From the NCBI GenBank assembly GCA_029309925.1, contig JARKND010000001.1:682001-746000 (forward strand): DNA of 64,000 bases. Reading direction: 5' to 3'. This stretch comes from Fulvivirgaceae bacterium JP3-4. Lineage in GTDB: Bacteria; Bacteroidota; Bacteroidia; Cytophagales; Cyclobacteriaceae. Made by a program: the position numbers and the translations under genes. The stretch's first letter is position 1. Each line of letters opens with the position of its first letter. This document shows, piece by piece, positions 2,816 to 63,508 of the stretch. The notes under the pieces are model-generated. The model did not search any database. It was not told the DNA's origin and saw only the letters and a program-made list of their open reading frames with translations.

Positions 2816-2905
2816 GAGGTTGCTGGTTGCCAGGGAGCCGGGAGGTTGGACGTCACAGGTTACAAGTTGACAGGCTCCAGTTTGCAGGTCACCAGACAGG
2901 TTAAA
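2816..2905. repeat. Word-repeat gap between convergent genes
   Basis: The gap between the stops of the helicase and LemA-like genes is built of related words (GGTTGCTGGTTGCCAGG, CAGGTTACAAGTTGACAGG). It includes GGGAGCC and a later GGCTCC that can pair. There is no T-run. Its position suggests a transcript-end structure for one or both genes. Confidence 0.5.
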
Positions 2906-2912
2906 ACGGAGA

Positions 2913-3515
2913 CTACTCTTCTGCCACCGTCTGGAACAGCGGTTTTTTTGCAGGGGTGTCTATATCCATCTCGCGCAGCATACGCTGGTTTTTCTCGATA
3001 AACTCGTTGTAATTCGAGGCGATCTCATCGTATTCTGCGCGATAGTTTTCAACGCGTTGCTCTGCGGTGCGAATCGATTCGACAAGCTTTTGCAGCGTAG
3101 TATTGTAAGAGAACTGCGGCTGGGATTCAGCGAGGGCGATCAACTCAGTCACCAGCGAGTTGGAAGCGAAATCATATTCTTCGATGACATGGGCATTTTC
3201 CATTGTCTTCTGCGTGTAACGCGAGTGCGCCAGCTGGTCGAGGCGTTCCTGGAAAGCCTGGAGCTCTTCTTTTTTAGACGGATTTGAAACCGTCAGCTCG
3301 TGCAGCAGATTATGCATTGCCTTGAGCTTCTGGTTGTCATCGTTGATCATCGAATTCCACGTTTCGAGCATGGCATCTTTCAGATCAAGGTAGGTATCTG
3401 TCAGGGAGTCGGCCTTTGTAAAATGGGTTTCATCCGGGCGTTTGTGCTCACTGCACGCCAAAAAAGCGATAGACAGGAAGAAAAATGCAATTCCTGGGTA
3501 AAAACGTCTGGTCAT
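2913..3515 (-). CDS. LemA-like lipoprotein
   Basis: The protein has 200 residues. The N terminus is a lipoprotein signal with lipobox LACS, so Cys21 is probably lipidated. The rest is helical. The segment around 145-180, with paired Glu/Arg residues, ExRVENYRAEYDE and then NYNEFI, resembles the second half of LemA proteins (ARxxYN repeats). Overall length and helix content fit LemA (about 190), but the first half is divergent. The gene stands alone, convergent to deaD. The function of LemA-family proteins is poorly defined. The lipoprotein nature is clear; the family assignment is tentative. Confidence 0.6.
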   Translation of the reverse strand: MTRRFYPGIAFFFLSIAFLACSEHKRPDETHFTKADSLTDTYLDLKDAMLETWNSMINDDNQKLKAMHNLLHELTVSNPSKKEELQAFQERLDQLAHSRYTQKTMENAHVIEEYDFASNSLVTELIALAESQPQFSYNTTLQKLVESIRTAEQRVENYRAEYDEIASNYNEFIEKNQRMLREMDIDTPAKKPLFQTVAEE

Positions 3516-3625
3516 TTCAAGGCTCCTTAACGTGAATTACGGGATTGTTATCAAAATGTTTTGTGGTGCGCCTAATAATCGGGCTTGATGTACCATTTTA
3601 ATCGAAATTTATATAAACGGCTGGT

Positions 3626-4108
3626 TCAAAGCGGCTTAAACTGCTCAAACGCCTCTTTGCAGGTATTGCAGTAATGAATAGATCGGCACAGGGTGGGCCC
3701 GAAAGGATTCTTTAATTCAGTATCCGTACCGTTGCATCGCGGGCAGGGTACGTGTTCTAGAATATCAATGTCGGTGAACAGGTTTTGCGCTGAAGGCGGT
3801 GGAGCAAGGCCGAATGTCTTTAACGCTGCTTTTCCTTTTTCCGAAATGCTGTCTGATGTCCATGGCTTGCGAAACGAAACTTCGATGTCAACTTTAAGTC
3901 CGCGTTTCTCCAGCACTTCAACAATGTCACCCTTCATCATGTCCAAAGCAGGGCAGCCTACAAATGTTGGTGTCATTTCAACAAAAACATTTTTGCCGTT
4001 CAGTTTCACATCTGTGATCACGCCCAGGTCAACAAGCGACAATACTGGAATTTCCGGGTCTTTAACCTCTTCCAGCCACTGGTAAATATCGTTTGTTGTG
4101 ATCTCCAT
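3626..4108 (-). CDS. paaD: Phenylacetyl-CoA epoxidase subunit PaaD
   Basis: PaaD is needed for maturation of the ring 1,2-phenylacetyl-CoA epoxidase, probably through iron-sulfur or iron delivery. Residues about 5-80 form a DUF59/MIP18 domain (DPEIPVLSLVDLGV). The C terminus has a zinc-ribbon-like set of cysteines (C122, C125, C141, C147, C150), typical of PaaD and absent from plain DUF59 proteins. At 160 residues it has the usual length. Its ATG overlaps the stop of the upstream DinB gene by one base (TAATG), so the two are translationally coupled. It is the last gene of the paaB-paaC-dinB-paaD unit. Confidence 0.92.
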   Translation of the reverse strand: MEITTNDIYQWLEEVKDPEIPVLSLVDLGVITDVKLNGKNVFVEMTPTFVGCPALDMMKGDIVEVLEKRGLKVDIEVSFRKPWTSDSISEKGKAALKTFGLAPPPSAQNLFTDIDILEHVPCPRCNGTDTELKNPFGPTLCRSIHYCNTCKEAFEQFKPL

Positions 4109-4578
4109 TACTTATAGATAACATCAAATGATCCGGGAATGATTTGGTTGATGTGATGTTTCATATGTTTATTATAATCTGCCGCCAGCCATTCGATCGT
4201 GCGAAGCTCAACAGCAGTTTTTCCCGTATCGGCCTGCTTCGTGAAATTTTTCGGCTCCATGTTCTTCAACACACTTGCAATGCTTTCGTTTGTGAGCTTC
4301 CACAACCGGATCACATCCGCTTTGCTGCGATTTTGATAGCCATTTGCAGCGACCCAGAAATCCTGATCATAGGTAATCTTTGGTGGCGCTGATTCATACT
4401 GCGCGACAATAAATCTTCTGAGGTTGTTTTGCGCTGAATCGATCAGATGTCCCAACACCTCCTTTTTGCTCCACTTTGCCGGGTTTGGCTTTGCAGAAAA
4501 TTCTTCCTCTGAGAATGCATCGAATTTTTTCGAGTACTCAGCGAGGATGGCGAGAAGCTCAGTGATGGTTGGGTTCAT
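4108..4578 (-). CDS. DinB-family four-helix protein
   Basis: The protein has 156 residues, all helical. It carries the DinB/DUF664 layout, with WSKKEVLGHLIDSAQNN near residues 35-51 and a late HMKHHINQI segment (about 137-145). The histidines at H45, H137, H140 and H141 are of the type that binds a divalent metal in this superfamily. It sits between paaC and paaD, 41 bases after paaC and overlapping paaD, so it is co-transcribed with the epoxidase genes. Its role there is unknown; thiol-dependent transferases and unknown stress proteins share this fold. Confidence 0.8.
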   Translation of the reverse strand: MNPTITELLAILAEYSKKFDAFSEEEFSAKPNPAKWSKKEVLGHLIDSAQNNLRRFIVAQYESAPPKITYDQDFWVAANGYQNRSKADVIRLWKLTNESIASVLKNMEPKNFTKQADTGKTAVELRTIEWLAADYNKHMKHHINQIIPGSFDVIYK

Positions 4579-4619
4579 TGGATTTGGGATTTAATTTCAG
4601 AAGTTGACTAGCTTTCAGA

Positions 4620-6465: not shown

Positions 6466-6598
6466 TTGCAAGTTACAAGTGTCAGGTTCCGGGCGAGCTG
6501 GTTGCGCAATTTGCGACTTGCTACCTGCAACCTGGAACAATTTCGCAGTTCAGCCAATACTTGCAGCTTGAAGCTTGTAGCTTGAAGCTTGCAGCCAA
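6466..6598. repeat. Word-repeat gap 3' of paaA
   Basis: The gap holds CAAGTTACAAG / GACTTGCTACC words, followed by a run built from AGCTTGAAGCTTG (6560-6596) whose AAGCTT units are self-complementary. It lies between the stop of the small plus-strand ORF and the stop of paaA, a terminator position for both. Confidence 0.6.
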
Positions 6599-7666: not shown

Positions 7667-7740
7667 TGGCTGCAAGCTGCACGCTTCACGCTGCAGGCAA
7701 TGGCGCGCAGACATGAAGTTTGACACTTGTAGCTATTGCA
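7667..7740. repeat. Short word-repeat patch upstream of paaA
   Basis: GGCTGCAAGCTGCACGC and CACGCTGCAGGC words lie in the 266-bp gap between tetR and paaA. The pattern is weaker than at other gaps, with no long arms. I saw no clear promoter for paaA here. Confidence 0.35.
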
Positions 7741-9019: not shown

Positions 9020-9240
9020 TGTGTGTTAATGTGCTCAGGTGTTCATGTTGTCTTTGGGACGTGACATGTTCAGGCCTTCCCTCTTTCGGAAGAATTTAGC
9101 CAAGCGCGGTCTGGTCTCGTCACTTGCTTTATGCTGAAAAGAAAGAGGATCTCGCATTTGAGACCCTCCTCATTATTTCTATCCGATAACATTTGCGATC
9201 AGGGAACATGAACACATTAGCACATGACCACCTGAACACA
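9020..9240. repeat. Word-repeat inverted arms between convergent genes
   Basis: The left arm (9020-9070) is built from TGTGTT, AATGTG, CTCAGGTG and TTCATGTT words. The right arm (9203-9240) contains their reverse complements (GAACATGAACACATTAGCAC and CACCTGAACACA). Between them a small stem (AGG-TCTC/GAGA-CCT, about 9146-9167) may act as a terminator. It fills the gap between the stops of the membrane protein gene and the minus-strand barrel gene. Confidence 0.7.
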
Positions 9241-28281: not shown

Positions 28282-28301
28282 GGAACAACGGTTCCTTTTT
28301 T
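28282..28301 (+). terminator. Intrinsic terminator of the ABC operon
   Basis: GGAAC (28282-28286), loop AACG, GTTCC (28291-28295) and six T form a short but regular terminator 30 bases after the DUF3299-like stop. Confidence 0.7.
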
Positions 28302-28396
28302 CTTATTTCTCTTTCGGTTTCCTCCCAATGTCTGGTGACAAGTGACTCATCCCTCACGTTTTTTGCTAACTTGACTTGGAACTTTGAAGTCAAACT

Positions 28397-31108: not shown

Positions 31109-31251
31109 GGGAAGCCGGGTACCGGGACCCCCGGGCGGCCGGCCCCGACTTAAATAAATTTTCGGACTGAACGTGATCGCTTTTCGAGAGCGTTTGCGGT
31201 CGACCGGCCTCTTGGCTTCGCGGCACCCGGCTCCCCGGCACCTGGCTTCCC
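31109..31251. repeat. GC-rich long inverted repeat between convergent genes
   Basis: Bases 31109-31126 (GGGAAGCCGGGTACCGGG) and 31234-31251 are reverse complements at 16 of 18 positions. More CCGG- and GGCTCC-type words lie around both arms, up to about 31275. The element fills the gap between the DUF218 gene and recN. Neither arm is followed by a T-run. Confidence 0.8.
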
Positions 31252-42447: not shown

Positions 42448-42566
42448 GGCTACAAGCTGCAAGCCACAAGTCCTGCGAGTGTGTGTGGAAAGCGTTGTTA
42501 TGGAGCAACGGTAGAAAGCTGTGAGCGCACCATCGGGCTTGCAGCTTGCGGCCTGAAGCTTGCAGC
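42448..42566. repeat. Word-repeat inverted arms after mdh
   Basis: The left arm (42448-42470, GGCTACAAGCTGCAAGCC) and right arm (42537-42566, GGCTTGCAGCTTGCGGCC and GAAGCTTGCAGC) are near reverse complements. They start directly at the T-run of the mdh terminator. The rest of this 317-bp gap up to 42715 is AT-rich leader of the symporter gene. Confidence 0.75.
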
Positions 42567-46635: not shown

Positions 46636-46694
46636 CTTGAGCCTTGTGGTTAAGATGTATTTTCGAAGTGGGAATCACTTAAGCTCACATTCAT
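46636..46694. other. Start of a 328-bp gene-free gap
   Basis: The gap 46636-46963 has no gene. After this short stretch without features it contains the long inverted repeat 46695-46864 and the AAATCTAAAATC tract 46918-46959. Confidence 0.5.
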
Positions 46695-46864
46695 CGCGGA
46701 ACATGGCGTCCATAGCGCCACCGCGGTGAAAAGAGTTATGTGTCAGGAAAAACATACTACGAGGTTTTTCAAGACAGCTGGTAAACGTTTATCGCCAGAT
46801 CTTAGTGTTTTGTGTAAATCTAATTGCGTTTACCGCGATGGCGCGGTGAACGCCATGTTTCGCG
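46695..46864. repeat. Long inverted repeat (36-bp arms, 30 of 36 matching)
   Basis: The left arm is 46695-46730 and the right arm is 46829-46864. Aligning the left arm with the reverse complement of the right gives 30 identities. Both arms contain ACATGGCGT, GCGCCA and CGCGGT words. The 98-base loop is AT-rich and codes for nothing recognised. Confidence 0.88.
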
Positions 46865-46917
46865 GTGAGCGCATCAGAACTTCAGCGTATGTTGGATAGT
46901 CTTCGATGTGCAAATGC

Positions 46918-46959
46918 ATAAATCTAAAATTTCAAATCTAAAATCTAAAATCTAAAATC
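46918..46959. repeat. Direct word repeat upstream of the DHFR-like gene
   Basis: The tract consists of about five copies of AAATCTAAAAT-type words ending just before the ATG at 46964. It lies where the promoter or leader should be. Confidence 0.75.
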
Positions 46960-47962: not shown

Positions 47963-48004
47963 CTGTCGGTGCTCTAAACCACCACTGCGCATGTTGTCGA
48001 TCCG

Positions 48005-48786: not shown

Positions 48787-48859
48787 GGTTGGAAGGCTTT
48801 GAACGCTGAATAATGCGGCTCTGGTAGTAAAATTTACGAAGAAAGTTGGTAAAATGTCT

Positions 48860-48958
48860 GTAGTTTATAGTTTTTAGTTTGTGGTTGGTGGCGTCCAAAG
48901 AGTGGCGTGACTGATGAAAAAGCCGGAAACTATAAACTACAAACCACAAACCACAAAC
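48860..48958. repeat. Word-repeat inverted arms between divergent genes
   Basis: The left arm (48860-48891) is made of TAGTTTATAGTTTTTAG and TGTGGTTGGTGG words; the right arm (48926-48958) of AAACTATAAACTAC and AAACCACAAACC. GTAGTTTATAG (48860-48870) is perfectly complementary to 48930-48940. It occupies the promoter region of the SnoaL-like gene. Confidence 0.78.
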
Positions 48959-48962
48959 TTCC

Positions 48963-49430
48963 ATGCATCCAAACGAAGAGGTCATTCACAAGTTTTATAA
49001 GGCTTTTCAGGCAAAGGATTTCAAAACCATGCAAAGTCTGTATCGTGATGATGCCTCGTTCAACGATCCCGTCTTTCAAAACCTTTCGGCACCGGAAGTC
49101 CGTGCGATGTGGGAGATGCTGATCAGCGCTTCCACCGACCTGAAGATCGAATACGGCAGTGTGTCAGCAGATGACCGTGTTGGAAAATGCATGTGGCAGG
49201 CGTGGTATACATTTACAACAACGGGCAGGCGTGTTCACAATGTGATCTATGCGAACTTTGCTTTCCGCGATGGGAAGATTTTAAGTCACATCGATAAGTT
49301 TGATTTCTGGCGCTGGTCCAAGATGGCGCTCGGTACTCCTGGGTTGCTGTTGGGATGGACACCGATCATCAGAAATAAAGTGAGGAACACCGCGAGGAAG
49401 CGTTTACAGAAGTTTATGGGTGCGGAGTAG
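48963..49430 (+). CDS. SnoaL/NTF2-like protein
   Basis: The protein has 155 residues. The N terminus, EEVIHKFYKAFQAKDFKTMQSLYRDDASFNDP (about 5-36, as a span), with later ASTDLKIEYGSVSADD and HVIYANFAFRDGKILSHIDKFDF, fits the cone-shaped NTF2-like fold of SnoaL-type proteins. These include isomerases, dehydratases and limonene-epoxide hydrolases; no specific substrate can be inferred. The C-terminal about 40 residues are basic. It is monocistronic and convergent to the nuo operon. Confidence 0.82.
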   Translation: MHPNEEVIHKFYKAFQAKDFKTMQSLYRDDASFNDPVFQNLSAPEVRAMWEMLISASTDLKIEYGSVSADDRVGKCMWQAWYTFTTTGRRVHNVIYANFAFRDGKILSHIDKFDFWRWSKMALGTPGLLLGWTPIIRNKVRNTARKRLQKFMGAE

Positions 49431-49464
49431 CCACTCCTGCGAAAACGCGGGACCTTCGGAAAGA

Positions 49465-49545
49465 CACGAAGGGCACCAAGTAGCACCAAGAACTTTCTAT
49501 TATTTTCTTAGTGTTCCTTCGTGCCCTTCGAGCCTTAGTGGCTAC
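49465..49545. repeat. Word-repeat inverted arms at the 3' end of the nuo operon
   Basis: CGAAGGGCAC (49467-49476) is a perfect reverse complement of GTGCCCTTCG (49521-49530). Flanking words CACCAAG/CTTAGTG and GAAGGAAC/GTTCCTTC add pairing. It lies between the stops of the SnoaL-like gene and nuoN, a terminator position for both. Confidence 0.78.
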
Positions 49546-49550
49546 TGTAT

Positions 49551-50927: not shown

Positions 50928-50941
50928 TTATAGTTAGATCA

Positions 50942-51066
50942 AAATACTAAGTTCCAAAAACCAAATCCCAAATTCCAAAAACCAATTTCAATAGCTATCG
51001 GCACCAAATTCTAACCCTGATGTTCAACACCAAAAGCTAAAGGCCAAAGGCGAAAAGCCAATAGCT
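50942..51066. repeat. Word repeat between nuoM and nuoN
   Basis: The patch is of direct words (TTCCAAAAACCAAATCCCAAATTCC, as a span 50952-50976, then AAAGGCCAAAGGCGAAAAGCC near 51040-51060). GCTAT and AATAGC units can pair weakly. There is no strong hairpin. Confidence 0.65.
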
Positions 51067-52539: not shown

Positions 52540-52563
52540 CTCTATATTAAATTCGAACTATTC

Positions 52564-54477
52564 TTATAAAAAACTTCTGCTCACGAGCAGCACAATGATG
52601 CTGATCACCATCGCGAGAATGTAAAATCCTGTATTTCCGGTCTGCACGAGGCGAAGCGTCTTGCTTCCCCAGGTGATTGCTTTCCCTGTTCCGTTCACAA
52701 TGTTGTCGATTAATAATTTCTCAACCACTGAATCGAAAACTTTGGAAAGGAAATACAAAGGCTTTACTACAACGGTGTTGTATGCTTCATCCACGTAGTA
52801 CTTGTTGTACACCAGACGATGTGCTGCACCAAGTGATGCTTCATTGGACGTTGGAACGCTTTTCCTTCTCACGTAGATCGAGTACGCGATGAAGATCATC
52901 ACGAGCGTAAGACCAACGATCAGCCCCATCAGGATCAATTCGGTTGAATGATCGAGGTGATGATGCTCACCTGCAATTTGCGCTGATTGGGCGAACACCG
53001 GTGAAAGGAAGTTATTCAATGCATGACTTCCACCAAGCACTTCTGGAACTCCCATAAAACCACCGATCAAGGAAAGAACAGCGAGAACCATCAACGGAAT
53101 AGTCATGCTTTTCGGTGATTCGTGGATATGATGCTTCACTTCCTCCGATGCTCTATTTTCACCTGAGAACGTCAGGAAGAAAAGGCGGAACATGTAGAAG
53201 GATGTTAGCAATGAAGCAATGGCTCCCACGGCATACACTACTTTGCTGTGCGCGAACGCATTTGCAAGGATTTCATCCTTCGAGAAGAAACCAGCGAATG
53301 GAGGAATACCCGCAATGGCCAGGGTTCCGACCAGGAAGGTGATGAACGTGATTGGAAGATATTTCCTCAGGCCGCCCATTTTGCGTATATCCTGTTCGTC
53401 GCTCATGCCGTGGATTACGCTACCAGCACCAAGGAACAACAACGCCTTGAAGAACGCGTGTGTCGCCATATGGAAGATACCTGTTGTAAACGCTCCAAGT
53501 CCGAGTGCAACGAACATCAACCCAAGCTGACTTACGGTCGAGTAGGCAAGTACTTTCTTAATGTCATTTTGTGCTATCGCGATGGTTGCTGCGAACAAGG
53601 CGGTTGCAAGTCCGATTACCGTTACAATTTCAAGTGTGAAAGGAGAGAGCGTGTAAAGTACGTTGTTGCGGGCGATCATGTAAACGCCAGCCGTCACCAT
53701 GGTTGCCGCGTGGATAAGGGCAGACACTGGTGTTGGGCCCGCCATCGCATCAGGAAGCCATGTGTACAATGGAATCTGTGCACTCTTACCAATTGCTCCG
53801 ACAAAAAGAAGGATCGTGATCCAAGTGATAATTTCAGAACCTACCGGGAATTCACCGGCCTTTGAGAATACGTCAGCGTAATTAATGCTGCCGAAAGTAA
53901 CGAAGATCAGAATCACACCAAGGATCAGACCAAGGTCACCGATGCGGTTCATGATGAATGCTTTCTTGGCTGCATCGTTGTAGTCCTGATTCTTGAACCA
54001 GAAACCGATCAGCAGGTAAGAGCAGAGACCAACGCCTTCCCATCCTACGAACATCAGCAGGTAGTTTGAACCCATCACCAACAAGAGCATGAAGAAGATA
54101 AACAAGTTCAGATACATGAAGAATCTTCTGAAACCGTCATCGTGATACATGTAGCCTACCGAGTAGACGTGAATTAAAAATCCAACGCCTGTGATGATCA
54201 TCATCATCGTGGCACTGAGTGGATCAACCAGGAATGAAAACGATACTGAGAAGTTTCCGGTTGTAATCCAGTCGAATGCAGTGTATGTAAATGCAGCCTG
54301 GCCCTCAGGAGCGTTCAATAAATTAAAGAACAGGACGGACGATAAAATGAATGCAACGAATACTGCTCCACACGCAAAAAAAGACACCCAGCCTTTTGTA
54401 AGGCTTTTATTCAGAAATCCGATGAAGAGAAAACCCAGTAGGGGAGCGAGTGGTATAAATCCAATCAAATCACTCAT
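52564..54477 (-). CDS. nuoL: NADH-quinone oxidoreductase subunit L
   Basis: NuoL is the distal antiporter-like subunit, 637 residues with about 16 helices and the long lateral helix at the C terminus. It has GVGLCSYLLIGFWF, AQIPLYTWLPDAMAGPTPVSALIHAATMV (as a span near 240-268) and KVLAYSTVSQLGLMFVALG. The start is taken as the ATG at 54477, which overlaps the nuoK stop by one base (TAATG). Another ATG two codons upstream (54483) is possible. Confidence 0.96.
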   Translation of the reverse strand: MSDLIGFIPLAPLLGFLFIGFLNKSLTKGWVSFFACGAVFVAFILSSVLFFNLLNAPEGQAAFTYTAFDWITTGNFSVSFSFLVDPLSATMMMIITGVGFLIHVYSVGYMYHDDGFRRFFMYLNLFIFFMLLLVMGSNYLLMFVGWEGVGLCSYLLIGFWFKNQDYNDAAKKAFIMNRIGDLGLILGVILIFVTFGSINYADVFSKAGEFPVGSEIITWITILLFVGAIGKSAQIPLYTWLPDAMAGPTPVSALIHAATMVTAGVYMIARNNVLYTLSPFTLEIVTVIGLATALFAATIAIAQNDIKKVLAYSTVSQLGLMFVALGLGAFTTGIFHMATHAFFKALLFLGAGSVIHGMSDEQDIRKMGGLRKYLPITFITFLVGTLAIAGIPPFAGFFSKDEILANAFAHSKVVYAVGAIASLLTSFYMFRLFFLTFSGENRASEEVKHHIHESPKSMTIPLMVLAVLSLIGGFMGVPEVLGGSHALNNFLSPVFAQSAQIAGEHHHLDHSTELILMGLIVGLTLVMIFIAYSIYVRRKSVPTSNEASLGAAHRLVYNKYYVDEAYNTVVVKPLYFLSKVFDSVVEKLLIDNIVNGTGKAITWGSKTLRLVQTGNTGFYILAMVISIIVLLVSRSFL

Positions 54478-54809
54478 TACCATTTCAATTTATTGAGTAC
54501 GTTAATATCCGTTGTTTTCGTGTTGTGATAGATCACAATGAGGATCGCGAGGCCGACTGCAACTTCAGCCGCAGCTACCGCCATAATAAAGAATACGAAA
54601 ACTTGTCCTGCGCCATCACCATGATAAGCAGAGAAAGCTACCAGCAATACGTTCACGGCATTCAGCATAAGCTCAATGCACATGAAGATGATGATTGCAT
54701 TCTTTCGGTACAGCACACCCAGCACACCGATCACAAACAATGCGGTGCTTAACCAGATGTAGTAATTCAGCGGAACACCCTGAATGGCCTGTGTTACGTT
54801 TTCGTTCAT
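54477..54809 (-). CDS. nuoK: NADH-quinone oxidoreductase subunit K
   Basis: NuoK is a small membrane subunit with 110 residues and three helices. It carries the conserved Glu pair in helices 2-3 ([34 protein letters not shown]) needed for proton transfer. It overlaps nuoJ by 4 bases and nuoL by one, so translation is coupled. Confidence 0.96.
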
Positions 54810-55390
54810 TTCGTAAGCTCTTTAATATTTCCGATTCCTCTTGCCGAGGCAACTGATCCTCGTCCGTTCTTCTCATGTGCAATTTCTTTAGCACGTTTCA
54901 TGTGCGTTTTGCCAAGCATCACGGCACCAACCATGGCGGCAAGAAGCAGGATCGAAACGATTTCAAAAGGGAGGAGGAATTCGTTGAACAACAGTCGTCC
55001 GAGATTTTTTACAAGACCGGTGTTGTTGCTTGACGCAAAGGACACGCTTTCAGCTTCAGCACCGCGCAATGCACCCACGAATACTACCAGCAAAAGTCCG
55101 GATGTAATCACTGCGCCAGCTTTCCAGAGATTTGATTTTTGTGATTCGTCATCCTTGTTGAGGTTCAGGAGCATAATCACGTAGAGGAACAACACCATGA
55201 TGGCACCGGCATACACGATCACGTGTACGGCCGCCAGGAACTGTGCATTTAATAATAAGTAATGACAGGCCACGCAGAAGAATGTGATGACAAGGTAAAG
55301 CACGCTGTGGATGGGATTCCGTGAGAATACGACCATCAGTGCGCTAAGCACGGCCAGGAATGAAATAAAATAAAATGCGTATAGAGTCAC
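54806..55390 (-). CDS. nuoJ: NADH-quinone oxidoreductase subunit J
   Basis: NuoJ is a membrane subunit with 194 residues and five helices. [29 protein letters not shown] and [22 protein letters not shown] contain the pi-bulge region typical of NuoJ (given as spans near 5-33 and 56-77). The C-terminal tail is charged. The gene starts 45 bases after nuoI. Confidence 0.95.
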
Positions 55391-55435
55391 GACACTGGTT
55401 ATTTAATCCAGCCGAAGCTGGTATAGGTTTAAGTC

Positions 55436-56005
55436 TTATCGGTTATGAGATAAATTCTTGTGCTTCTTGAATTCAAGAACCGCAGGAGTTTGTCTCTTCG
55501 TTACATCAACACGGTTGTCCACTGGCTCTACCAATTTATCTTTTCCGTAGATGAATTCGCCACGGCCAAACTCCGTTGGCACAAGGCGATCAGTCAGGAA
55601 GATGGCTTCTTTCGGACATGCTTCCTCACACAGCCCGCAGAAAATGCAACGCAACATGTTGATCTCGTAAGTTGTTGCATATTTTTCTTCGCGATACAGA
55701 TTCTCCTCGCCCTTCTTGCGCTCACCTGCCGTCATGGTGATAGCTTCCGCTGGACACGCTACGGCACAAAGTCCGCAGGCGGTACACCGTTCCGCACCTT
55801 TGTCGTCACGCTTGAGCACATGCTGGCCTCTCCACACCGCGCTAAACTCTCTTTTCTTTTCAGGATACTTCACAGTAGCCTTTCTTTTGAAAAGGTGTTT
55901 CAGGGTAATGATCACGCCTCCAAGAATCGCAGGCAGGTACATGCGCTCCGCCAGCGTCATTTCTTTCTTCACAACAACTTTTGATCTTCCAGATAGTGAT
56001 GTCAT
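55436..56005 (-). CDS. nuoI: NADH-quinone oxidoreductase subunit I (two 4Fe-4S clusters)
   Basis: NuoI is the ferredoxin-like subunit that carries clusters N6a and N6b to NuoB. At 189 residues it has two binding motifs, CTACGLCAVACP (about 77-88) and CIFCGLCEEACP (about 120-131). The basic N terminus and the hydrophobic stretch near 27-42 fit membrane-arm docking. It is separated from nuoH by a 190-bp word-hairpin gap. Confidence 0.96.
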   Translation of the reverse strand: MTSLSGRSKVVVKKEMTLAERMYLPAILGGVIITLKHLFKRKATVKYPEKKREFSAVWRGQHVLKRDDKGAERCTACGLCAVACPAEAITMTAGERKKGEENLYREEKYATTYEINMLRCIFCGLCEEACPKEAIFLTDRLVPTEFGRGEFIYGKDKLVEPVDNRVDVTKRQTPAVLEFKKHKNLSHNR

Positions 56006-56050
56006 TTGATATCGTTACTGTTAACTTCTTAGTTCATCTTTCTCTGTTGG

Positions 56051-56189
56051 GGCTGCAAGCTTCAAGCTACAAGCTTCAAGTTGTGCGCAGTCCTCAACGG
56101 TAGTCGCTCTTATCACGACTATTAATTCTTTGATCAATATTTTCGTTTGGTCTACCCGGCTTGCAGCTTGAAGCTTGCAGCTTGTAGCC
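56051..56189. repeat. Word-repeat hairpin between nuoH and nuoI
   Basis: The left arm is 56051-56081 (GGCTGCAAGCTTCAAGCTAC and on) and the right arm 56159-56189 (GCTTGCAGCTTGAAGCTTGC and on). They are near-perfect reverse complements over about 30 bases. A small stem TAGTCG (56101-56106)/CGACTA (56116-56121) lies in the loop. It interrupts the nuo transcript. Confidence 0.85.
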
Positions 56190-56195
56190 CATTCT

Positions 56196-57236
56196 TCAGT
56201 CCATCAGAATCATCACAAGCCCCGTCACAGCCACATTGGCAATCGCTAATGGAATCAAAATCTTCCAACCCAGGTTCATCAGCTGATCATAGCGGAAGCG
56301 CGGGAGTGTCCAGCGGATCCACATGAAGAAGAAGATGAAGAAGCCGATCTTCATGAAGAAGAATACGGTTCCGAGAATGGTGGCGACATTCGGATCGAGT
56401 CCGAGGTCGTTAATAAATGGAATGTTGTATCCGCCAAAGTAAAGCGTAGCCATTACTGCTGACGAAGTGAACATGTTAATGTATTCTGCGAACAGGTAGA
56501 AACCGAGCTTCATACTTGAATACTCCGTGTGGTATCCACCGACAAGTTCGGTTTCCGTTTCCGGCAAATCGAACGGCATACGGTTACATTCCGCGAAAGC
56601 GCAGATGATGAAGATCATGAAGCCTATTGGCTGATACACGATGTTCCACATATTCCAGTCAGAACCTACGCCACCGCCTTGCTGCGCGGCAATTTCCTGC
56701 AGACTGAGTGTTCCAGTGATCATGATCAACGCGATGATGGAAAGTCCCATCGCCAGTTCGTAGCTGATCATTTGTGCTGATGCGCGGATCGCGCCAAGCA
56801 ATGAGAATTTGTTGTTCGATGCCCAGCCACCGATCATGATACCATACACACCGATCGAAACAACTCCGAAGATGTACAGGATACCGATGTTCAAGTCAGC
56901 GATCTGAAGATTGTACTGTGTTCCGTTGATGGTCAGTGTTCCACCCCACGGAATGACAACGCCCGCCATGATCGCAGTAAGCATCGCCACGCAAGGGCCG
57001 ACAATGAAAAGGAATTTGTTCGAGACGTTCGGGATAATTTCTTCCTTCATGAACATCTTCACACCATCAGCCAGTGGTTGAAGAAGCCCAAAGGGACCCG
57101 CACGGTCAGGACCAACGCGATCCTGGATGAACGCAGCAACTTTACGCTCAAGATAAGTTGAGTACATGGCGATCAGCAGGGTGACGCCAAAAATTGAGAA
57201 TACAAGAATCAACTTAAACGTTAGTACTTCGCTCAT
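56196..57236 (-). CDS. nuoH: NADH-quinone oxidoreductase subunit H
   Basis: NuoH forms the quinone-entry chamber of complex I. It has 346 residues and eight or more helices. Conserved loops are YSTYLERKVAAFIQDRVGPDRAGPFGLLQPLADGVKM (about 26-62, as a span), FAECNRMPFDLPETETELVGGYHTEYSSMKL (about 213-243) and WIRWTLPRFRYDQLMNLGWKILIPL. The first loop and the Glu-rich one are quinone-linked. It overlaps the nuoG stop by 4 bases. Confidence 0.97.
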   Translation of the reverse strand: MSEVLTFKLILVFSIFGVTLLIAMYSTYLERKVAAFIQDRVGPDRAGPFGLLQPLADGVKMFMKEEIIPNVSNKFLFIVGPCVAMLTAIMAGVVIPWGGTLTINGTQYNLQIADLNIGILYIFGVVSIGVYGIMIGGWASNNKFSLLGAIRASAQMISYELAMGLSIIALIMITGTLSLQEIAAQQGGGVGSDWNMWNIVYQPIGFMIFIICAFAECNRMPFDLPETETELVGGYHTEYSSMKLGFYLFAEYINMFTSSAVMATLYFGGYNIPFINDLGLDPNVATILGTVFFFMKIGFFIFFFMWIRWTLPRFRYDQLMNLGWKILIPLAIANVAVTGLVMILMD

Positions 57237-58237
57237 TCCGCTGAGTTATTAGTCTGTTCTAATCTTTTTCCTTCCTGGAACTTCAATTGACGCTCAACAT
57301 CTTTCTTCAGTTTCACAAGGTCAACCTTCTCGTAGTGGTTTTGTGAAATCACCGAACCACGGTCAATGTGACGAGGTCCTTCAACCGTCCAGTGTGACAT
57401 GTCTTTATGGTCGTAACGGCATTCGTTACAGATAAACTCTTTCACTTCACCATACTGATCTTTGCGCGCTGTTACGCGCAATACATCATTGCCTTTAGTC
57501 CAGAGCACAACCTTACCGCTACACTTCGGACAATCCCTGTGAGCATCCAACGGTTTCGTGAACCACACGCGTTGCTTGAATCTGAATGTCTTATCAGTTA
57601 GTGCACCGACAGGACAAACATCGATCATGTTTCCGGAGAATTCATTGTCAACTGCTTTCTCAATGTACGTGCTGATCTCTGCGTGGTCCCCACGATTGAT
57701 CACACCGTGCACGCGGTTATCCGTCAGCTGATCGGCAACATACGTGCAGCGATAGCAGAGGATACAACGGTTCATGTGAAGCTTTATCTTATCACCGATG
57801 TCGATCGGGTCGAATGTTCTGCGTTCTTCTTCATAGCGGGTTTTCGCCATGCCGTGCTCGTAGGCGAAGTTCTGAAGATCACACTCACCGGCCTGGTCAC
57901 AGATTGGACAATCCAGCGGGTGATTCAACAACAGAAATTCAACAACACCTTTGCGTGTTTCAAGCACCTGCGGGTTTGTTATGTTCTCAACCACCATACC
58001 ATCTTGTGCCATCGTGATACATGACGGAACAAGTTTCGGCATCGGGCGTGGATCTTTCGCAGAACCTGCCGCCACTCTTACGAGACATGCACGGCACTTA
58101 CCACCGCTATTTTTCAACGTGGAATAGTAACACATCGCAGGAGGAACAATTTCTCCCCCGATTTGACGAGCTGCCTGCAGGATGGTTGTTCCTTCGGGCA
58201 CTTCGGTATTTATTCCGTCTATTGTTACCTTTATCAT
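57233..58237 (-). CDS. nuoG: NADH-quinone oxidoreductase subunit G, short form
   Basis: The product has 334 residues, against about 700-900 in many bacteria. The N-terminal 2Fe-2S domain has CRACLVRV (about 48-55). The Cys/His N5 region (HPLDCPICDQAGECDLQNFAYEHG, about 111-134 as a span) and the CxxCxxC part (CILCYRCT, about 159-166) are present. An extra CPKC/CNEC zinc-like pair (about 237-240 and 270-273) follows. The large molybdopterin-oxidoreductase-like domain is missing, as in several Bacteroidota-type complexes. The clusters needed for electron transfer to NuoI are kept. Confidence 0.93.
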   Translation of the reverse strand: MIKVTIDGINTEVPEGTTILQAARQIGGEIVPPAMCYYSTLKNSGGKCRACLVRVAAGSAKDPRPMPKLVPSCITMAQDGMVVENITNPQVLETRKGVVEFLLLNHPLDCPICDQAGECDLQNFAYEHGMAKTRYEEERRTFDPIDIGDKIKLHMNRCILCYRCTYVADQLTDNRVHGVINRGDHAEISTYIEKAVDNEFSGNMIDVCPVGALTDKTFRFKQRVWFTKPLDAHRDCPKCSGKVVLWTKGNDVLRVTARKDQYGEVKEFICNECRYDHKDMSHWTVEGPRHIDRGSVISQNHYEKVDLVKLKKDVERQLKFQEGKRLEQTNNSAE

Positions 58238-58276
58238 CTTCTGTTATCAGATATCTAAGTTCTTCGTTAAATCACG

Positions 58277-58404
58277 CTATGGCTTTTGGCTATAGCTATG
58301 GCCAGTGTCGCGTTTAATCTACTGGCGTACTTTTTAGGACTAAAATCCAAGCTGTTCGTTTTGAAAGTCCCGATGCATTAGCCATTGCCATAGCCAATAG
58401 CCTT
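58277..58404. repeat. Word-repeat hairpin between nuoF and nuoG
   Basis: The left arm (58277-58304) reads GCTATGGCTTTTGGCTATAG then CTATGGCC. The right arm (58379-58404) reads TAGCCATTGCCATAGCCAAT then AGCCTT. The arms are near reverse complements. The central part resembles that of the element at 60465-60606. Confidence 0.83.
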
Positions 58405-58410
58405 AGCTTC

Positions 58411-59769
58411 CTACGCCATCACCAAGTTCTTCTCAGAGCGAAACGGTTCTATCTCGAAATGCTTCGGATTCATCACCTTCTCCGGATACTTGATGTGGTA
58501 CTCAAACTCTTCCCTGAAGTGACGTATCGCACTGGCTACTGGCCATGCGGCTGCATCACCTAAAGGACAAATTGTGTTTCCTTCTATTTTCTTTGCTACA
58601 TCAACAAGCAGGTCGATGTCATGCATATGTCCGTGACCGTGTTCGATGCGGTGGAGCACTTTTTCCATCCACCCGGTGCCTTCGCGGCAAGGGGAACATT
58701 GTCCGCATGACTCGTGGTGATAGAAACGCGCGAACGTCCACAGGTTGCGAACGATACATGCCGTTTCATCCATGACAATGAAGCCACCGGATCCCAACAT
58801 TGAACCGCTCGCGAAACCTCCATCTGCAAGAGATTCGTAGCTCATTAAACGAGCTTCACCTTTTGCATTCTTGAGAAACAGATCTGCCGGGAGAATTGGC
58901 ACTGATGATCCACCCGGGATAACGGCTTTCAGTTTTCTTCCTTTCCACACGCCACCGCAGTATTCGTCAGAGTTCAGAAATTCTTCTACCGGAAGTCCAA
59001 GTTCGATTTCGTAAACGCCAGGCTTGTTGATGTGACCGGAAGCCGAGATCAACTTTGTACCTGTGCTTTTGCCGATTCCAATCTTTGCATATTCATCGCC
59101 ACCCATGTTGAGGATGTGAGGAACTGCTGCGATGGATTCAACATTGTTTACAACGGTTGGGCAACCGTACAAACCAACGATCGCAGGGAACGGAGGTTTG
59201 TTACGCGGATTACCACGTTTTCCTTCGAGTGATTCGATCTGTGCAGTTTCTTCTCCGCAGATGTAAGCACCTGCACCGGAGTGAACATACAATTCAAGAT
59301 CGTATCCACTTCCTAAAATATTTTTTCCAAGGAAGCCGGCAGCGCGAGCTTCTTCAATTGCTTTTTCAAGAATAGGGAAGATCCAGCGGAACTCACCGCG
59401 CATGTAGATGTAAGAGGTTTTCGCGCCAAGTGCAAAACTTGAAACGATCATACCTTCAATCAACGCATGCGGAATGTATTCCATCAGGAAGCGGTCCTTG
59501 AATGTACCAGGCTCACTTTCGTCTGCATTGCAGATGAGGTAACGAGGCTTCTCTGATTTTTTGTCGATGAAGCTCCATTTCATCCCGGTAGGGAAACCCG
59601 CACCTCCGCGACCGCGAAGACCGGATTTTTTCACTTCTTCGACAACCGCATCGGGAGACATGGTCTTCAGTGCTTTCTCAACCGAAGCATAGCCGCCTTG
59701 CTTGCGATACACTTCGAAAGACTTGATTCCCGGAACGTTAATGTCCTTTAATAATAACTTCCTTCCCAT
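58411..59769 (-). CDS. nuoF: NADH-quinone oxidoreductase subunit F (NADH- and FMN-binding)
   Basis: NuoF takes electrons from NADH through FMN to cluster N3. At 452 residues it has GLRGRGGAGFPTGMKWSF (about 50-67) for FMN/NADH, GAGAYICGEETAQIESLEG (about 166-184) for NADH binding, and the 4Fe-4S ligands in ESCGQCSPCREGTGW (about 353-367) with a later C. It directly follows nuoE (5 bases). The C terminus is slightly extended. Confidence 0.97.
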   Translation of the reverse strand: MGRKLLLKDINVPGIKSFEVYRKQGGYASVEKALKTMSPDAVVEEVKKSGLRGRGGAGFPTGMKWSFIDKKSEKPRYLICNADESEPGTFKDRFLMEYIPHALIEGMIVSSFALGAKTSYIYMRGEFRWIFPILEKAIEEARAAGFLGKNILGSGYDLELYVHSGAGAYICGEETAQIESLEGKRGNPRNKPPFPAIVGLYGCPTVVNNVESIAAVPHILNMGGDEYAKIGIGKSTGTKLISASGHINKPGVYEIELGLPVEEFLNSDEYCGGVWKGRKLKAVIPGGSSVPILPADLFLKNAKGEARLMSYESLADGGFASGSMLGSGGFIVMDETACIVRNLWTFARFYHHESCGQCSPCREGTGWMEKVLHRIEHGHGHMHDIDLLVDVAKKIEGNTICPLGDAAAWPVASAIRHFREEFEYHIKYPEKVMNPKHFEIEPFRSEKNLVMA

Positions 59770-59774
59770 TTGTA

Positions 59775-60326
59775 TTATGCTTTATTCACCGGGTATGGCG
59801 AACCATAATCCGGTGATGGAACATTATGTGTTTCTCTTAATTTCTTCAGAACGTCATCCATCTTTTCTACTGAAAGATTTTCGATGAAGTTATTGCCAAC
59901 CTGCATCATAGGCGCAGATCCACATGACGCGAGACACTCAACAACTTTCAATGTGAACATTCCGTCAGCAGAAGTTTCACCTGGTTGGATTCCAAGTTTG
60001 TTAGAAATGTATTGAATGATATCATCCGACCCTCTCAACCAGCATGGACCCGTCTGACAAACTTCCAATACACATTTTCCAACAGGCTGAAGATTATACA
60101 TCGAGTAGAACGATGCTACTTCATACACTTCAATTGGCTTGATGTTGAGGATCGAAGCAACGTAATCCATCGTCTCCGGACTTAACCATCCGCCAAACTC
60201 AGCCTGCGCCACGTGCAAAATTGGTAGCAATGCAGACTTGTGACGTCCCTCAGGGTAACGTTTGATGATCTTCTGGACTAGAGACATTGCTGCCTCGGAG
60301 AATTGTGGTTTAGTACTTGATGTCAT
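59775..60326 (-). CDS. nuoE: NADH-quinone oxidoreductase subunit E
   Basis: NuoE carries the 2Fe-2S cluster N1a, thought to limit radical formation. At 183 residues the thioredoxin-like fold has four Cys ligands in VCQTGPCW (about 88-95) and VVECLASCGSAPMM (about 128-141). The N-terminal helical part (AMSLVQKIIKRYPEGRHKSA) is typical. It is preceded by the 284-bp word-repeat gap that separates it from nuoD. Confidence 0.96.
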   Translation of the reverse strand: MTSSTKPQFSEAAMSLVQKIIKRYPEGRHKSALLPILHVAQAEFGGWLSPETMDYVASILNIKPIEVYEVASFYSMYNLQPVGKCVLEVCQTGPCWLRGSDDIIQYISNKLGIQPGETSADGMFTLKVVECLASCGSAPMMQVGNNFIENLSVEKMDDVLKKLRETHNVPSPDYGSPYPVNKA

Positions 60327-60344
60327 TCTACTACTAGTTGGTTG

Positions 60345-60606
60345 GGCTATGGCTTTTGGCTATAGCTATGGCCAGTGTTTACTTTATCTATTTGTCAGTT
60401 TAGCTATGGCTATGGCTTTTGGCTATAGCTATGGCTAGTGGTTACTTTATCTATTTGTCAGTTTAGCTATGGCTATGGCCGTTGGCTATAGCTATGGCTA
60501 GTGTTACACTTAATGTTCGGTATCCTTCGTATTCACTAAAATCAAACGCTCCACTTTCGATGGTCCAGATGCACAAGCCATGGCCATAGCCAATAGCCAT
60601 AGCAGC
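60345..60606. repeat. Triplicated word-repeat element between nuoD and nuoE
   Basis: Copies A (60345-60402), B (60403-60465) and C (from 60466) share GGCTATAGCTATGG and, in A and B, ACTTTATCTATTTGTCAGTT. The unit length is 63. The right arm (60575-60606, CAAGCCATGGCCATAGCCAA and on) is complementary to the left words. It fills the whole gap. Confidence 0.88.
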
Positions 60607-60610
60607 TAAC

Positions 60611-61822
60611 CTACGCATCGAGCTCACCTGCGATTACGTTCATACTACTCATCGTCAAAATCGCATCCGAGATATTCGTTCCTTTTATCATTTCGGCATA
60701 CGCCTGATAATAAATGAAACAAGGACGTCTCATGTGCAAGCGGAATGGCGTGCGACCGCCATCGCTGATGAGGTAAAATCCTAGTTCACCATTTCCACCT
60801 TCAACGCAATGATACACTTCACCTTTTGGAACATCGGTTTCACCCATCACGATCTTGAAGTGATAGATGAGCGCTTCCATGTTATTGTATACTTCCTGTT
60901 TCGGAGGAAGATAAAAATCAGGAACATTAGGCGAGTAGTGAGGACCTGAAGGCATCTTTTCGATTGCCTGTTTGATGATGTTCATACTCTCCCACATTTC
61001 TTCCTGGCGAACCATGAAACGATCATAGGTGTCGCCATTGAGGCCTACAGGAATTTTGAAATCGAAATCTTCGTAAGAAGAGTACGGGTTCATCACACGT
61101 ACATCATAGTCAACGCCAGCAGCGCGGAGGTTGGGTCCGGAGAAGCTGTAGTTGAGTGCGCGTTCTGCTGAGATAGGTCCTGCACCAATCGTGCGGTCCA
61201 TGAAAATGCGGTTACGCTTCACGAGGTTTTCAAATTCCTTCAACGCCTCCGGGAATTCCTTGAGGAACTTGTCGATCTTCTTCCAGGCTTTGTCGTTGAA
61301 GTCTCTTTCGAAACCACCAATGCGTCCGATGTTGGTTGTCAGACGAGCGCCACAAATTTCTTCGTAGATCTCGTAGATCAATTCACGGAACTGGAACAGG
61401 TAAACGAATCCCGTAAGGGCACCGGTATCCACACCGATTACCGTGTTACAAATAATATGATCTGAAATTCGTGCAAGCTCCATGATGATGACACGGAGGT
61501 ATTGAACGCGTTTCGGAATTTCTGCCTGAATAAGTTTCTCGACCGTCATGTGCCACCCGATGTTATTGATCGGAGAGGAGCAATAGTTCATGCGGTCAGT
61601 GATCGGAGTGATCTGGTAGAACGGTCTGCGCTCGGCAAGTTTTTCGAATGCGCGGTGAATGTAACCGATAGTCGGCTCCGAGTGAACGATCACTTCGCCA
61701 TCCATCGTCAGCACGTTCTGGAAAATACCGTGTGTTGCCGGGTGAGTAGGACCTAAGTTGAGCGTTGAGTATTGTTTCTGCTCGACTGAAGTATTGGGGT
61801 TTATGATATTTTCGTTTGCCAT
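60611..61822 (-). CDS. nuoD: NADH-quinone oxidoreductase subunit D
   Basis: NuoD is the 49-kDa subunit that forms the quinone site with NuoB and NuoH. It has 403 residues. Features are LGPTHPATHGIFQNVLTMDGE (about 23-43), with the HPATHG motif that binds the quinone head, ERRPFYQITPITDRMNYCSSP and RIGGFERDFND. The C terminus MSSMNVIAGELDA fits. NuoC is separate here (not fused as NuoCD in enterobacteria). It starts 3 bases after nuoC. Confidence 0.97.
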   Translation of the reverse strand: MANENIINPNTSVEQKQYSTLNLGPTHPATHGIFQNVLTMDGEVIVHSEPTIGYIHRAFEKLAERRPFYQITPITDRMNYCSSPINNIGWHMTVEKLIQAEIPKRVQYLRVIIMELARISDHIICNTVIGVDTGALTGFVYLFQFRELIYEIYEEICGARLTTNIGRIGGFERDFNDKAWKKIDKFLKEFPEALKEFENLVKRNRIFMDRTIGAGPISAERALNYSFSGPNLRAAGVDYDVRVMNPYSSYEDFDFKIPVGLNGDTYDRFMVRQEEMWESMNIIKQAIEKMPSGPHYSPNVPDFYLPPKQEVYNNMEALIYHFKIVMGETDVPKGEVYHCVEGGNGELGFYLISDGGRTPFRLHMRRPCFIYYQAYAEMIKGTNISDAILTMSSMNVIAGELDA

Positions 61823-61825
61823 CGT

Positions 61826-62344
61826 CTATCGTCCGAACATGAAATCTTTTTTGTCTTCGCGCGTCTGATCTTCCAGCGGATATTCCTTCCGCAATGGATG
61901 GATGATCATATCTTCAACATTCAAAATTCTTCGCAAGTCAGGGTGCCCGGTGAACTTCACTCCGAAGAAATCGTACGTCTCGCGTTCCATCCAGTTTGCG
62001 GCTGAATAGAGAGTCGTCAACGTAGGGGTTACCGGGTTTTCTTCCGGAAGGTAAATCTTCAAACGAACGCGCCAGTTGTTGGTCAGACTGTGAAGCTGAT
62101 ACATAACAGCGATCTGCTTAACGTCAGGATAATGGATTCCGCACAAGGTAGTCAGGTACTGGAAGCGAGCTTCATTATGATCGTAGAGATACTGAATGAT
62201 CTCAATGATCTTCTCCTTTTTTAAATTGATGGTAAGGAAATTATACGGAGACTCAACTGAGAGTACTTCAGCTTCAAAATTTTCCTTGATGATGTTAACT
62301 ACCTTCTCTTGAACAGTGCTATCCATGGGGTTATTCAATGCCAT
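61826..62344 (-). CDS. nuoC: NADH-quinone oxidoreductase subunit C
   Basis: NuoC is the 30-kDa structural subunit of the peripheral arm. It has 172 residues with a family signature at [30 protein letters not shown] (about 115-144, as a span). It overlaps the nuoB end by up to 14 bases. An internal Met (MDSTVQEK, start 62326) would avoid the overlap, so the true start is uncertain. Confidence 0.95.
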
Positions 62345-62888
62345 ATTTGTTCAGCATCTTTTTGTATTCTTCTGAATCTCTTCTTCTCAGTGATTCATTT
62401 TCAACCAGATGCTGAATTCTCATAATACCATCTATGATTTGCTCAGGACGAGGAGGGCATCCTGGCACATAAACATCAACTGGAATAATTCGGTCGATAC
62501 CCTGAAGCACGCTGTATGTGTCGAAGATACCGCCACTGCATGCACACGCACCGACACTCAATACCCATCTCGGCTCGGCCATCTGCTCGTATACCTGGCG
62601 AAGTACCGGTCCCATCTTTTTCGCGATTGTTCCCATCACCATCAGCAAGTCTGCCTGACGAGGAGAGAAGCTCAAACGCTCAGAGCCGAAACGCGCCAAG
62701 TCATAGTGAGCGCCCATCGTTGCCATGAATTCAATTCCACAACACGATGTAGCGAATGGAAGCGGCCAGATGGAATTTTTGCGCGCCATACCAACGACTT
62801 TATCGAGGCTGGTTGCAAAGAAACCTGCACCTTCAATGCCTTCCGGTTTTTCTACAAGTGTAATTTTATTTTCAGTTGCTGTCTGCAT
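62331..62888 (-). CDS. nuoB: NADH-quinone oxidoreductase subunit B
   Basis: NuoB carries cluster N2, the last electron donor to quinone. At 185 residues the ligands lie in TSCCGIEF (about 47-54), [10 protein letters not shown] (about 112-121) and VPGCPPRPE (about 140-148), the tandem Cys pair being diagnostic. The C-terminal extension is charged. It lies 51 bases after nuoA. Confidence 0.97.
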
Positions 62889-62939
62889 GTTTTTCAGTTT
62901 GAAGTTCCCCCTATAAAACTACAGGAGCTTGCCTTTTGT

Positions 62940-63311
62940 TCAGTCTTCCCACTCCAGCGCTTTTTTCTTTATTATATAGAAGAAGCCGACCAGGAGGAGT
63001 CCAATGAAAACGATCATTTCAATGAAGCCGGGAATTCCGAATTCCTTGAAATTAACCGCCCAGGGATACATGAAAATCACCTCCACGTCAAAGAGAACGA
63101 ACAGGATTGCCACGAGGAAATACTTGATCGGAAATGCCTGACGCGCATTGCCTTTCGACTCGATTCCGCACTCAAAAGATTGCAGTTTTACCTTGGTTTT
63201 ACGCTTCGGTCCCAGCCAGTGCGTAACCACCATCGTAACACCCACAAACCCGGCCGCCAACAGGAACATCAACAATATCGGCAGGTAATCAACCAGTCCA
63301 GTATTCGTCAT
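62940..63311 (-). CDS. nuoA: NADH-quinone oxidoreductase subunit A
   Basis: NuoA is the first gene of the nuo operon: 123 residues from the ATG at 63311, three helices. KLQSFECGIESKGNARQAFPIKYFLVAILFVLFDVEVIFMYPWA (about 39-82, as a span) contains the conserved Glu/Asp of helix 2. A longer form from a TTG at 63335 would overlap the -7 box at 63333-63340, so the ATG is preferred. Confidence 0.95.
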   Translation of the reverse strand: MTNTGLVDYLPILLMFLLAAGFVGVTMVVTHWLGPKRKTKVKLQSFECGIESKGNARQAFPIKYFLVAILFVLFDVEVIFMYPWAVNFKEFGIPGFIEMIVFIGLLLVGFFYIIKKKALEWED

Positions 63312-63332
63312 AATTTTATGCTTAAAGGCCGC

Positions 63333-63340
63333 CAAAATTA
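63333..63340 (-). promoter_or_regulatory. -7 box for the nuo operon
   Basis: On the minus strand this reads TAATTTTG, 21 bases before the nuoA ATG. A TTTTAAA tract sits where a -33 element would be, but no TTG. The upstream neighbour is the word-repeat block at 63391-63508. Confidence 0.55.
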
Positions 63341-63390
63341 AGGCTAATTCTGGTTTTAAAATATTATTTGGCCCATTATTCTCACGTGAA

Positions 63391-63508
63391 AAGGCTATGG
63401 CTATAGCAATTGGCTATGGCTAACTTTATCCATGAGAGTGATTGTGCAGCATAGATGGCGAAATTCTCAGGAGATCCTTGCCATAGCCTTGGCCAACAGC
63501 TATAGCCC
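63391..63508. repeat. Word-repeat hairpin upstream of nuoA
   Basis: The left arm (63391-63423) has AAGGCTATGGCTATAGCAAT and GGCTATGGCTAAC. The right arm (63480-63508) has GCCATAGCCTTGGCCAACAG and CTATAGCCCC. The arms are imperfect reverse complements. GGCTATGGCTAACTTTATC resembles the unit at 60403-60465. Confidence 0.83.

Follow-up and report, generated by a model that had tools for sequence, protein, structure and literature searches.

Reports of heptamer repeats are scattered among bacteria and include the STRR heptamers of cyanobacteria, which are compared here alongside TAACTGA arrays. The present analysis concerns word hairpins, intergenic pairs of inverted arrays built from short repeated words, in a 64,000-nt stretch (the window; C1:682001-746000, contig JARKND010000001.1) of the 5.8-Mb genome of Fulvivirgaceae bacterium JP3-4. 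A related design is found in the GGGAATC heptamers of Xanthomonas, which the part of Rehm et al. 2015 (PMC4692102) used here describes as degenerate, mostly intergenic arrays, with 70 and 75 cases of two close sites in convergent orientation. Those sites lie nearer to the 5' neighbouring gene (on average 28 nt versus 160 nt), and 16% of them fall between convergent genes and 7 to 8% between divergent genes. Two close species differ in the length and sequence of these repeats, while 83% of sites keep their gene context across the two species and usually also their single or paired state. Degenerate 7-nt tandem units, inverted convergent pairs, an intergenic position and an excess in convergent over divergent gaps are all found here too. 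In the same part of that report the Xanthomonas repeats form one G-rich family, described as a G-quadruplex former, whereas here there are many families, many of them not G-rich, the vocabularies of congeners differ, loops are unrelated and hairpins nest. The paired-heptamer design is already known, going by those pages (PMC4692102); the many-family form described here appears to be new.

The excerpts used of reports on three further systems allow a similar comparison. The TAACTGA arrays of Beggiatoaceae, cyanobacteria and some Bacteroidetes (PMC4679880) are likewise mostly intergenic tandem heptamers with a patchy phylogenetic spread; unlike the word hairpins they are direct arrays, which in the Beggiatoaceae genome in most cases sit immediately before starts, and one inverted case is reported. 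REPINs and REPs (PMC3116915, PMC3733652) share with the word hairpins two polar inverted words, a less conserved spacer, an intergenic position and species-specific populations, but REPs are palindromes tied to RAYT genes, with set-length spacers and common compensatory changes, features that are absent or not settled here. The BrickBuilt miniature inverted-repeat transposable element (MITE) of Porphyromonas gingivalis (PMC4596501) is also from the Bacteroidota, intergenic and made of tandem repeats inside an inverted-repeat element, but forms a single family, built from a 23-nt unit together with leader and tail subunits. We found no report of many-family inverted heptamer pairs in Bacteroidota in the open-licence literature, and none of the DNA words looked for there was found printed as a repeat.

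A region of 1.66 of the 5.8 Mb (C1:482001-2146000) was surveyed, together with samples of two congeners (180 kb of G001 and 204 kb of G002) and 79 of 80 named Bacteroidota loci, one locus shorter than 6 kb and 4 of 952 gaps having been dropped from this wider comparison. A 452-aa window protein, NuoF-like by reading, had its top matches in Chryseolinea and other Cytophagales of the Bacteroidota. Genes were called with a codon-score script, not a standard caller, and gaps of 40 to 1200 nt were scored, with gaps below 40 nt outside the survey and 4 of 825 gaps excluded as longer than 1200 nt. The score of a gap was that of its best non-overlapping inverted arms, set against dinucleotide shuffles (200 in the survey). 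Of the 821 gaps, 132 exceeded all 200 shuffles, where about 4 were expected, as against 22 gaps for control arms that were reversed without being complemented (100 shuffles; about 8 expected). Arms of at least 16 nt with a loop of at least 30 nt were present in 70 of the 132 significant gaps (median loop 80 nt, median arm 29 nt), and these are referred to as long elements.

In the window, 10 of 38 gaps exceeded all 200 shuffles, namely two short-loop stems (35295-35358 and 44389-44450, each with a loop of 5) and eight of the ten gaps in which an earlier sequence-only reading had described inverted arms. That description held for all ten, each score being met by at most 12 of 2000 dinucleotide shuffles; in order along the window the counts were 1, 9, 12, 0, 0, 0, 0, 0, 0 and 3. 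The weakest cases were 31109-31251 and 42448-42566, neither of which beat all but one of the 200 survey shuffles. The start that had been given for the range as a whole was not supported, since the gap at 2810-2912 has no significant arms (score met by 65 of 100 shuffles). Word hairpins are real and recurrent.

We write W for a word as it stands in the 5' arm and w for its reverse complement, rc(W); all 5' arms given here lie on the plus strand and all 3' arms on the minus strand. Both arms within one gap use the same words, as had been noted. The accompanying idea that each gap has its own vocabulary was wrong: single-linkage grouping of 78 elements, in which the small clusters are uncertain, placed the words in 31 clusters, 17 of them with at least five sites, with sizes of 54, 47, 44, 44, 23 and 19 down to 1. 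The AAGCTTC family, with 44 sites in the 1.66 Mb, supplies the arms at 42448..42470 and 42542..42566 (score of the whole gap met by 12 of 2000 shuffles) and those at 56050..56080 and 56160..56190, the last of which leaves 5 nt to the end called for the gene at 56196. Three gaps share the GCTATGG family (19 sites): one with arms at 58276..58302 and 58381..58407, whose G002 orthologue has other words; one with arms at 63399..63422 and 63484..63507; and one in which three tandem 63-nt copies (60346..60503), each with a 5' arm (60346-60377, 60409-60440 and 60472-60503), face a 3' arm at 60572..60603. The later copies of this triplication are 97% and 67% identical to the first. Arms at 9023..9049 and, in reverse complement, 9205..9231 belong to the TGTGTTCA-type family of 23 sites. 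The CGCGGTGAA words (46691..46730 and 46829..46868) and the GTAGTTTATAG words (48856..48873 and 48927..48944) are rare, with 3 and 2 sites, and the gap of the former holds two extra A/T-rich word sites, both in w orientation (46911..46959, minus strand). The remaining pairs consist of CACGAAG words (49461..49492 and 49505..49536) and, as a weak case met by 9 of 2000 shuffles, CCGGG words (31109..31126 and 31234..31251).

Arms consist of a degenerate unit repeated in tandem, with an identity at lag 7 of 0.562 versus 0.288 in shuffles, and among 144 arms of at least 20 nt the best lag was 7 in 84, 8 in 30 and 6 in 17. Scanning with the arms of the 78 elements gave 353 sites, 337 of them intergenic, where intergenic DNA makes up 10%, and at least one word site was present in 153 of 825 gaps. 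The differing words had been taken to exclude simple spreading of one element. There is indeed not one element, but spreading itself is not excluded by this, and several families have spread, each with its own words. Both long elements and gaps with any word site were commonest between convergent genes (27 of 118 and 54 of 119), followed by tandem (37 of 516 and 87 of 519) and divergent genes (6 of 187 and 12 of 187). The median distance of the outer arms is 10 nt to stops and 72 nt to starts, and 52 of 101 stop-side ends fall within 10 nt of the stop, compared with 37.5 expected from random placement in the gap.

The order of the words follows a polarity rule. Same-family neighbours within a gap (n=142) were arranged W-w in 90 cases, W-W in 29, w-w in 20 and w-W in 3. 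For neighbours with one or two genes between them (n=59, not all independent, as some arrays were counted more than once) the corresponding numbers were 16, 16, 15 and 12, and this roughly even order across genes means that the rule is a property of pairs sharing a gap. When arms of different elements were compared at a score of 14, they carried the same strand in the 5' arm in 132 cases and the opposite strand in 14, with ratios of 231:83 at a cut-off of 10 and 66:1 at 18; thirteen of the 14 opposite cases came from the largest cluster, a mixture of A/T-rich and AAAGC words. Polarity was scored on elements first found through their inverted arms, and the across-gene control serves as the guard. 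Where elements of other Bacteroidota resemble one of the clusters here, their polarity agrees with that cluster in a ratio of 32:2, and for those of G002 the ratio is 9:1, although 28 of the 32 agreeing elements are GATTTTAG hairpins of two orthologous Flavobacterium-group gaps, so that the independent cases are few. Base composition was rejected as the basis of polarity, with G exceeding C in 16 clusters, C exceeding G in 11, and 19 of 29 being purine-rich.

The word hairpins turn over among relatives. A query with the AAGCTTC hairpin (56000-56200) matched this genome 94 times, a number that covers both strands and includes the query's own position, and had no match in G001 or G002 at E 0.001. 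Long elements were present in 0 of 105 G001 gaps and in 21 of 123 G002 gaps, the latter with words of their own. Among the 15 orthologous gaps that could be compared for long elements here (seven of G001 and eight of G002), those of the two congeners had other words or none recognisable, and three of the eight G002 gaps (opposite -12082, 48787 and 58238; matched by reading) held a significant hairpin of other words. The gap at 56006-56195 is 190 nt here, and 20 and 22 nt in the two congeners; measured between aligned gene ends it is 49-104 nt in loci L029-L034 versus 223 here.

Two orthologous gaps compared across the Flavobacterium group, of which one is orthologous to 60288-60610 here, range from overlapping genes to 263 nt. 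The ten closest pairs of this group (90.6-94.6% identity; the pairs overlap and some gaps are counted more than once) showed 14 length differences of at least 25 nt, of which 12 involved word arrays and 2 a Flavo-1 RNA insertion. At the gap labelled C, five species (L043, L050, L056, L071 and L072) carry an insert that separates the stop codon from a conserved TATTTTAAAT, and the empty form includes L063, L069, L070 and L076; L050, L071 and L072, all filled, each have a close relative with the empty site. By eye, gap D holds CGCAAAG hairpins, GCAGATT hairpins or nothing (L051, L060 and L064), depending on the species, and one hairpin is nested in another in L059, L068 and L075. At gap E the arms are kept while the loop differs (L072 versus L076 versus L070). 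Other repeats were seen in Flavobacterium-group gaps. The CCCGATAGCTATCGGG-type palindrome, or a variant of it, occurs inside word arrays or loops in L059, L060, L061, L064, L070, L072 and L076 (gaps A, B or E), and is one repeat nested within another. A Flavo-1 RNA at L076:13645-13726 (63.7 bits) has no counterpart in the corresponding gap of L072 or L073, which means that this 'RNA', too, behaves like an insertion.

These data suggest, with about even confidence on our part, that the word hairpins are many families of non-autonomous, fixed-polarity paired-heptamer insertions at the 3' ends of genes. An element would consist of two short arrays of a degenerate, mostly 7-nt word, in the order W, loop, rc(W), often placed a few bases behind a stop codon. 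One species would carry many families, any of which may multiply to dozens of gaps and yet be absent from congeners, and new elements would replace others at the same gene end or land within another's loop. Like REPINs, elements presumably insert as whole units by way of a machinery that reads W in one strand, and their loops probably change afterwards; with loops rewritten or unrelated, only the word arrays stay recognisable. The architecture, the polarity, the recurrence of families, the intergenic bias, the presence or absence gap by gap, and the different families and nested hairpins at one site are directly supported by the data above.

Several results weigh against such insertions. Same-family loops showed no likeness (83 pairs, mean z 0.08, versus 0.06 for 150 cross-family pairs), and plain copying of units is not expected to yield such unrelated loops. 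Inspection of gaps C and E by eye showed no target duplication, and no autonomous partner was found, the order of words around genes being random and the six framed proteins viewed reading as ordinary cell proteins. Single arrays made up 41 of the 153 gaps with word sites, with even orientations (20 versus 20, and one in a divergent gap). The closeness to stops is modest and may only reflect tolerance, and the scattered species with a filled gap C could also be explained by several losses or by gene exchange.

The loops also bear on what is carried. One spreading MITE was rejected, the loops being unrelated; the conserved interior expected of MITE copies was not found in the 83 within-family pairs. 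Elements 58276 and 60472 are an exception and align end to end. Sixteen of the 70 loops match somewhere else in the 1.66 Mb, and in a whole-genome search with 56000-56200 the matches fell on the arms, reaching at most about 20 nt into the loop. A carrier gene framed by words was likewise rejected, the order being random and the six framed proteins viewed (NuoF-, NuoE-, thioredoxin-, sigma-factor- and PaaA-like, and one unknown), judged by reading with no family search, appearing to be ordinary cell proteins.

The sequence-only reading had proposed that each arm is copied locally from the other, or else that an unknown activity creates and maintains the arms. In an extended form of local copying, an array would arise or arrive, fold-back at the replication fork or template switching would print its reverse complement, and ectopic pairing would spread the words. 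Unique loops and the existence of single arrays fit this proposal, and so does a slight kinship within gaps: with one pairing per side and the same threshold, same-gap arms scored 19.2 versus 17.7 for other gaps of the family, self being favoured in 36 of 48 (p 0.0007; part of this may stem from picking elements by that score), and exact matches were longer within gaps than across them, 12.2 versus 10.7 nt (p 0.005). Once the others were given four arm pairings, however, other elements matched better than the partner arm, with self above the median in 13 of 48. The fixed polarity of 90 to 3 would not be predicted either, because fold-back is open to both nascent strands. The congeners lack the loop as well as the arms at gap 56006-56195, and the loop is therefore unlikely to be old gap DNA, unless it was lost from both of them. 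A check of co-variation in 19 of 39 Flavobacterium-group orthologues of gap A, chosen for significant arms, found two-sided change in 0 of 16 predicted stem pairs; nine never vary, and the other seven hold 3 one-sided and 11 broken cells. This small test points to orthologous arms drifting apart. The part of the proposal that stands is a within-gap kinship that exists but is small, which makes local copying at most a minor factor, and we regard it as unlikely to account for the word hairpins.

The elements might be REPIN-like and moved by the cell's own Y1 (RAYT) transposase, an explanation that we consider distinctly doubtful. The shared architecture of two inverted polar words around a less conserved spacer in intergenic DNA, as given in the part of PMC3116915 used here, speaks for it, as do five Y1_Tnp matches in this genome and the finding that in G001, where none of the 105 gaps has a long element, the Y1 matches are all weak (best 2.7e-8). 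Examined by eye, however, the five Y1 loci lie among other palindromic repeats; one of the five adjoins a TGTG array, on one side, and none has the RAYT gene flanked by the same repeat. Nor did inspection of the arms reveal a REP-kind palindrome within W, or a palindromic word with a GTAG or CGTC tag, the arms being tandem heptamers without a common tag. Among 42 Flavobacterium-group genomes, at least four GATTT arrays in the locus were present in 16 of 30 with a strong Y1 match (E <1e-15, our own cut) and in 3 of 12 without one, and 5 of the 30 had no GATTT arrays in the locus. These counts neither prove nor exclude a link. A strict need for a Y1 transposase was rejected on the 3 of 12 genomes that keep such arrays without a strong match. 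The Y1 genes of this genome in L189, L191, L192 and L193 are surrounded, by eye, by palindromes of their own, for example CCCCCGGCTTAAGCCGGGGG in L191 and AACCTTATTACC in L192.

We find it slightly more doubtful still that the word hairpins are selected RNA hairpins at 3' ends, either terminators or 3'-end protectors, born of slippage-prone heptamers. The bias by gap type and the positions near stops agree with this, and so do the predicted RNA folds of four window elements (z -5.7 to -6.9, with -6.9 for the element at 49461 and -6.5 for that at 56050), which suggest a strong stem that may have a role at the 3' end. On the other side, no compensatory change was found in the one gap tested, and a scan of 46400-63600 for a GC stem followed by a T tract, which detects only loops of up to 8, gave 16 terminator-like matches versus 15.3 in shuffles. 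The same gene ends are empty in close relatives, and the shared polarity of unrelated words would go unexplained. Neutral slippage of heptamer microsatellites, with inverted pairs as a by-product, seems improbable to us: it accounts for the 7-nt period, and the part of PMC4692102 used here reports an excess of heptamers in bacteria and proposes polymerase slippage, but slippage yields direct arrays, and the 90-to-3 order together with the across-gene control needs more.

Beyond this genome, the insertions favoured above could tentatively be seen as a widespread, unnamed class of mobile DNA, with fixed-polarity heptamer pairs, a hypervariable interior and an enzyme whose sequence preference changes fast and leaves species-specific words; we think this possible, with confidence well short of even. 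A template-driven heptamer writer, such as a reverse transcriptase, is one candidate. If the insertions are what they seem, a good part of the intergenic DNA in some Bacteroidota would consist of insertions overlooked by annotation, which show turnover among species of a single genus and whose transcripts would form strong hairpins downstream of genes, and the scattered heptamer-repeat reports from Xanthomonas, cyanobacteria and Beggiatoaceae would be tied together. The polarity rule and the turnover of vocabulary make the question of a writer or mover testable through close strains.

An Rfam 15 scan at the gathering score gave no match, and the remark of the first reading that no described element class fits is borne out as far as Rfam, in which no family matches the word hairpins. 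An Rfam family as their identity was rejected, the only match at E 0.5 being outside the word hairpins: a weak Flavo-1 RNA (RF01705) match on the plus strand at 596-698, with 32.6 bits, below the gathering score of 42.

Arrays without a hairpin are also present in the window. Lone AAGCTTC arrays lie at 6567..6596 (minus strand, with no partner in the gap) and 7668..7695 (plus strand), a lone AGTCACTAGTC array at 28298..28347 (minus strand) and a lone CAGGTTGCAAG array at 50951..50985 (plus strand). Strict patterns in the code of the International Union of Pure and Applied Chemistry, for one family in both orders across 60 genomes, found nothing in one run and one element, in this genome, in the other. 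Plasmid searches with three words returned 2 records, 23 records (10 of Salmonella, best E 6e-4) and 4 records. In the Pseudomonas aeruginosa plasmid pZM21 (L202:31748-32127) a long CTTCAAG array adjoins, by eye, a GAAGCTG-type array of opposite orientation; AAGC-type heptamers occur in both orientations in this stretch, part of which is annotated as a hypothetical protein, and by eye these are similar words in another phylum.

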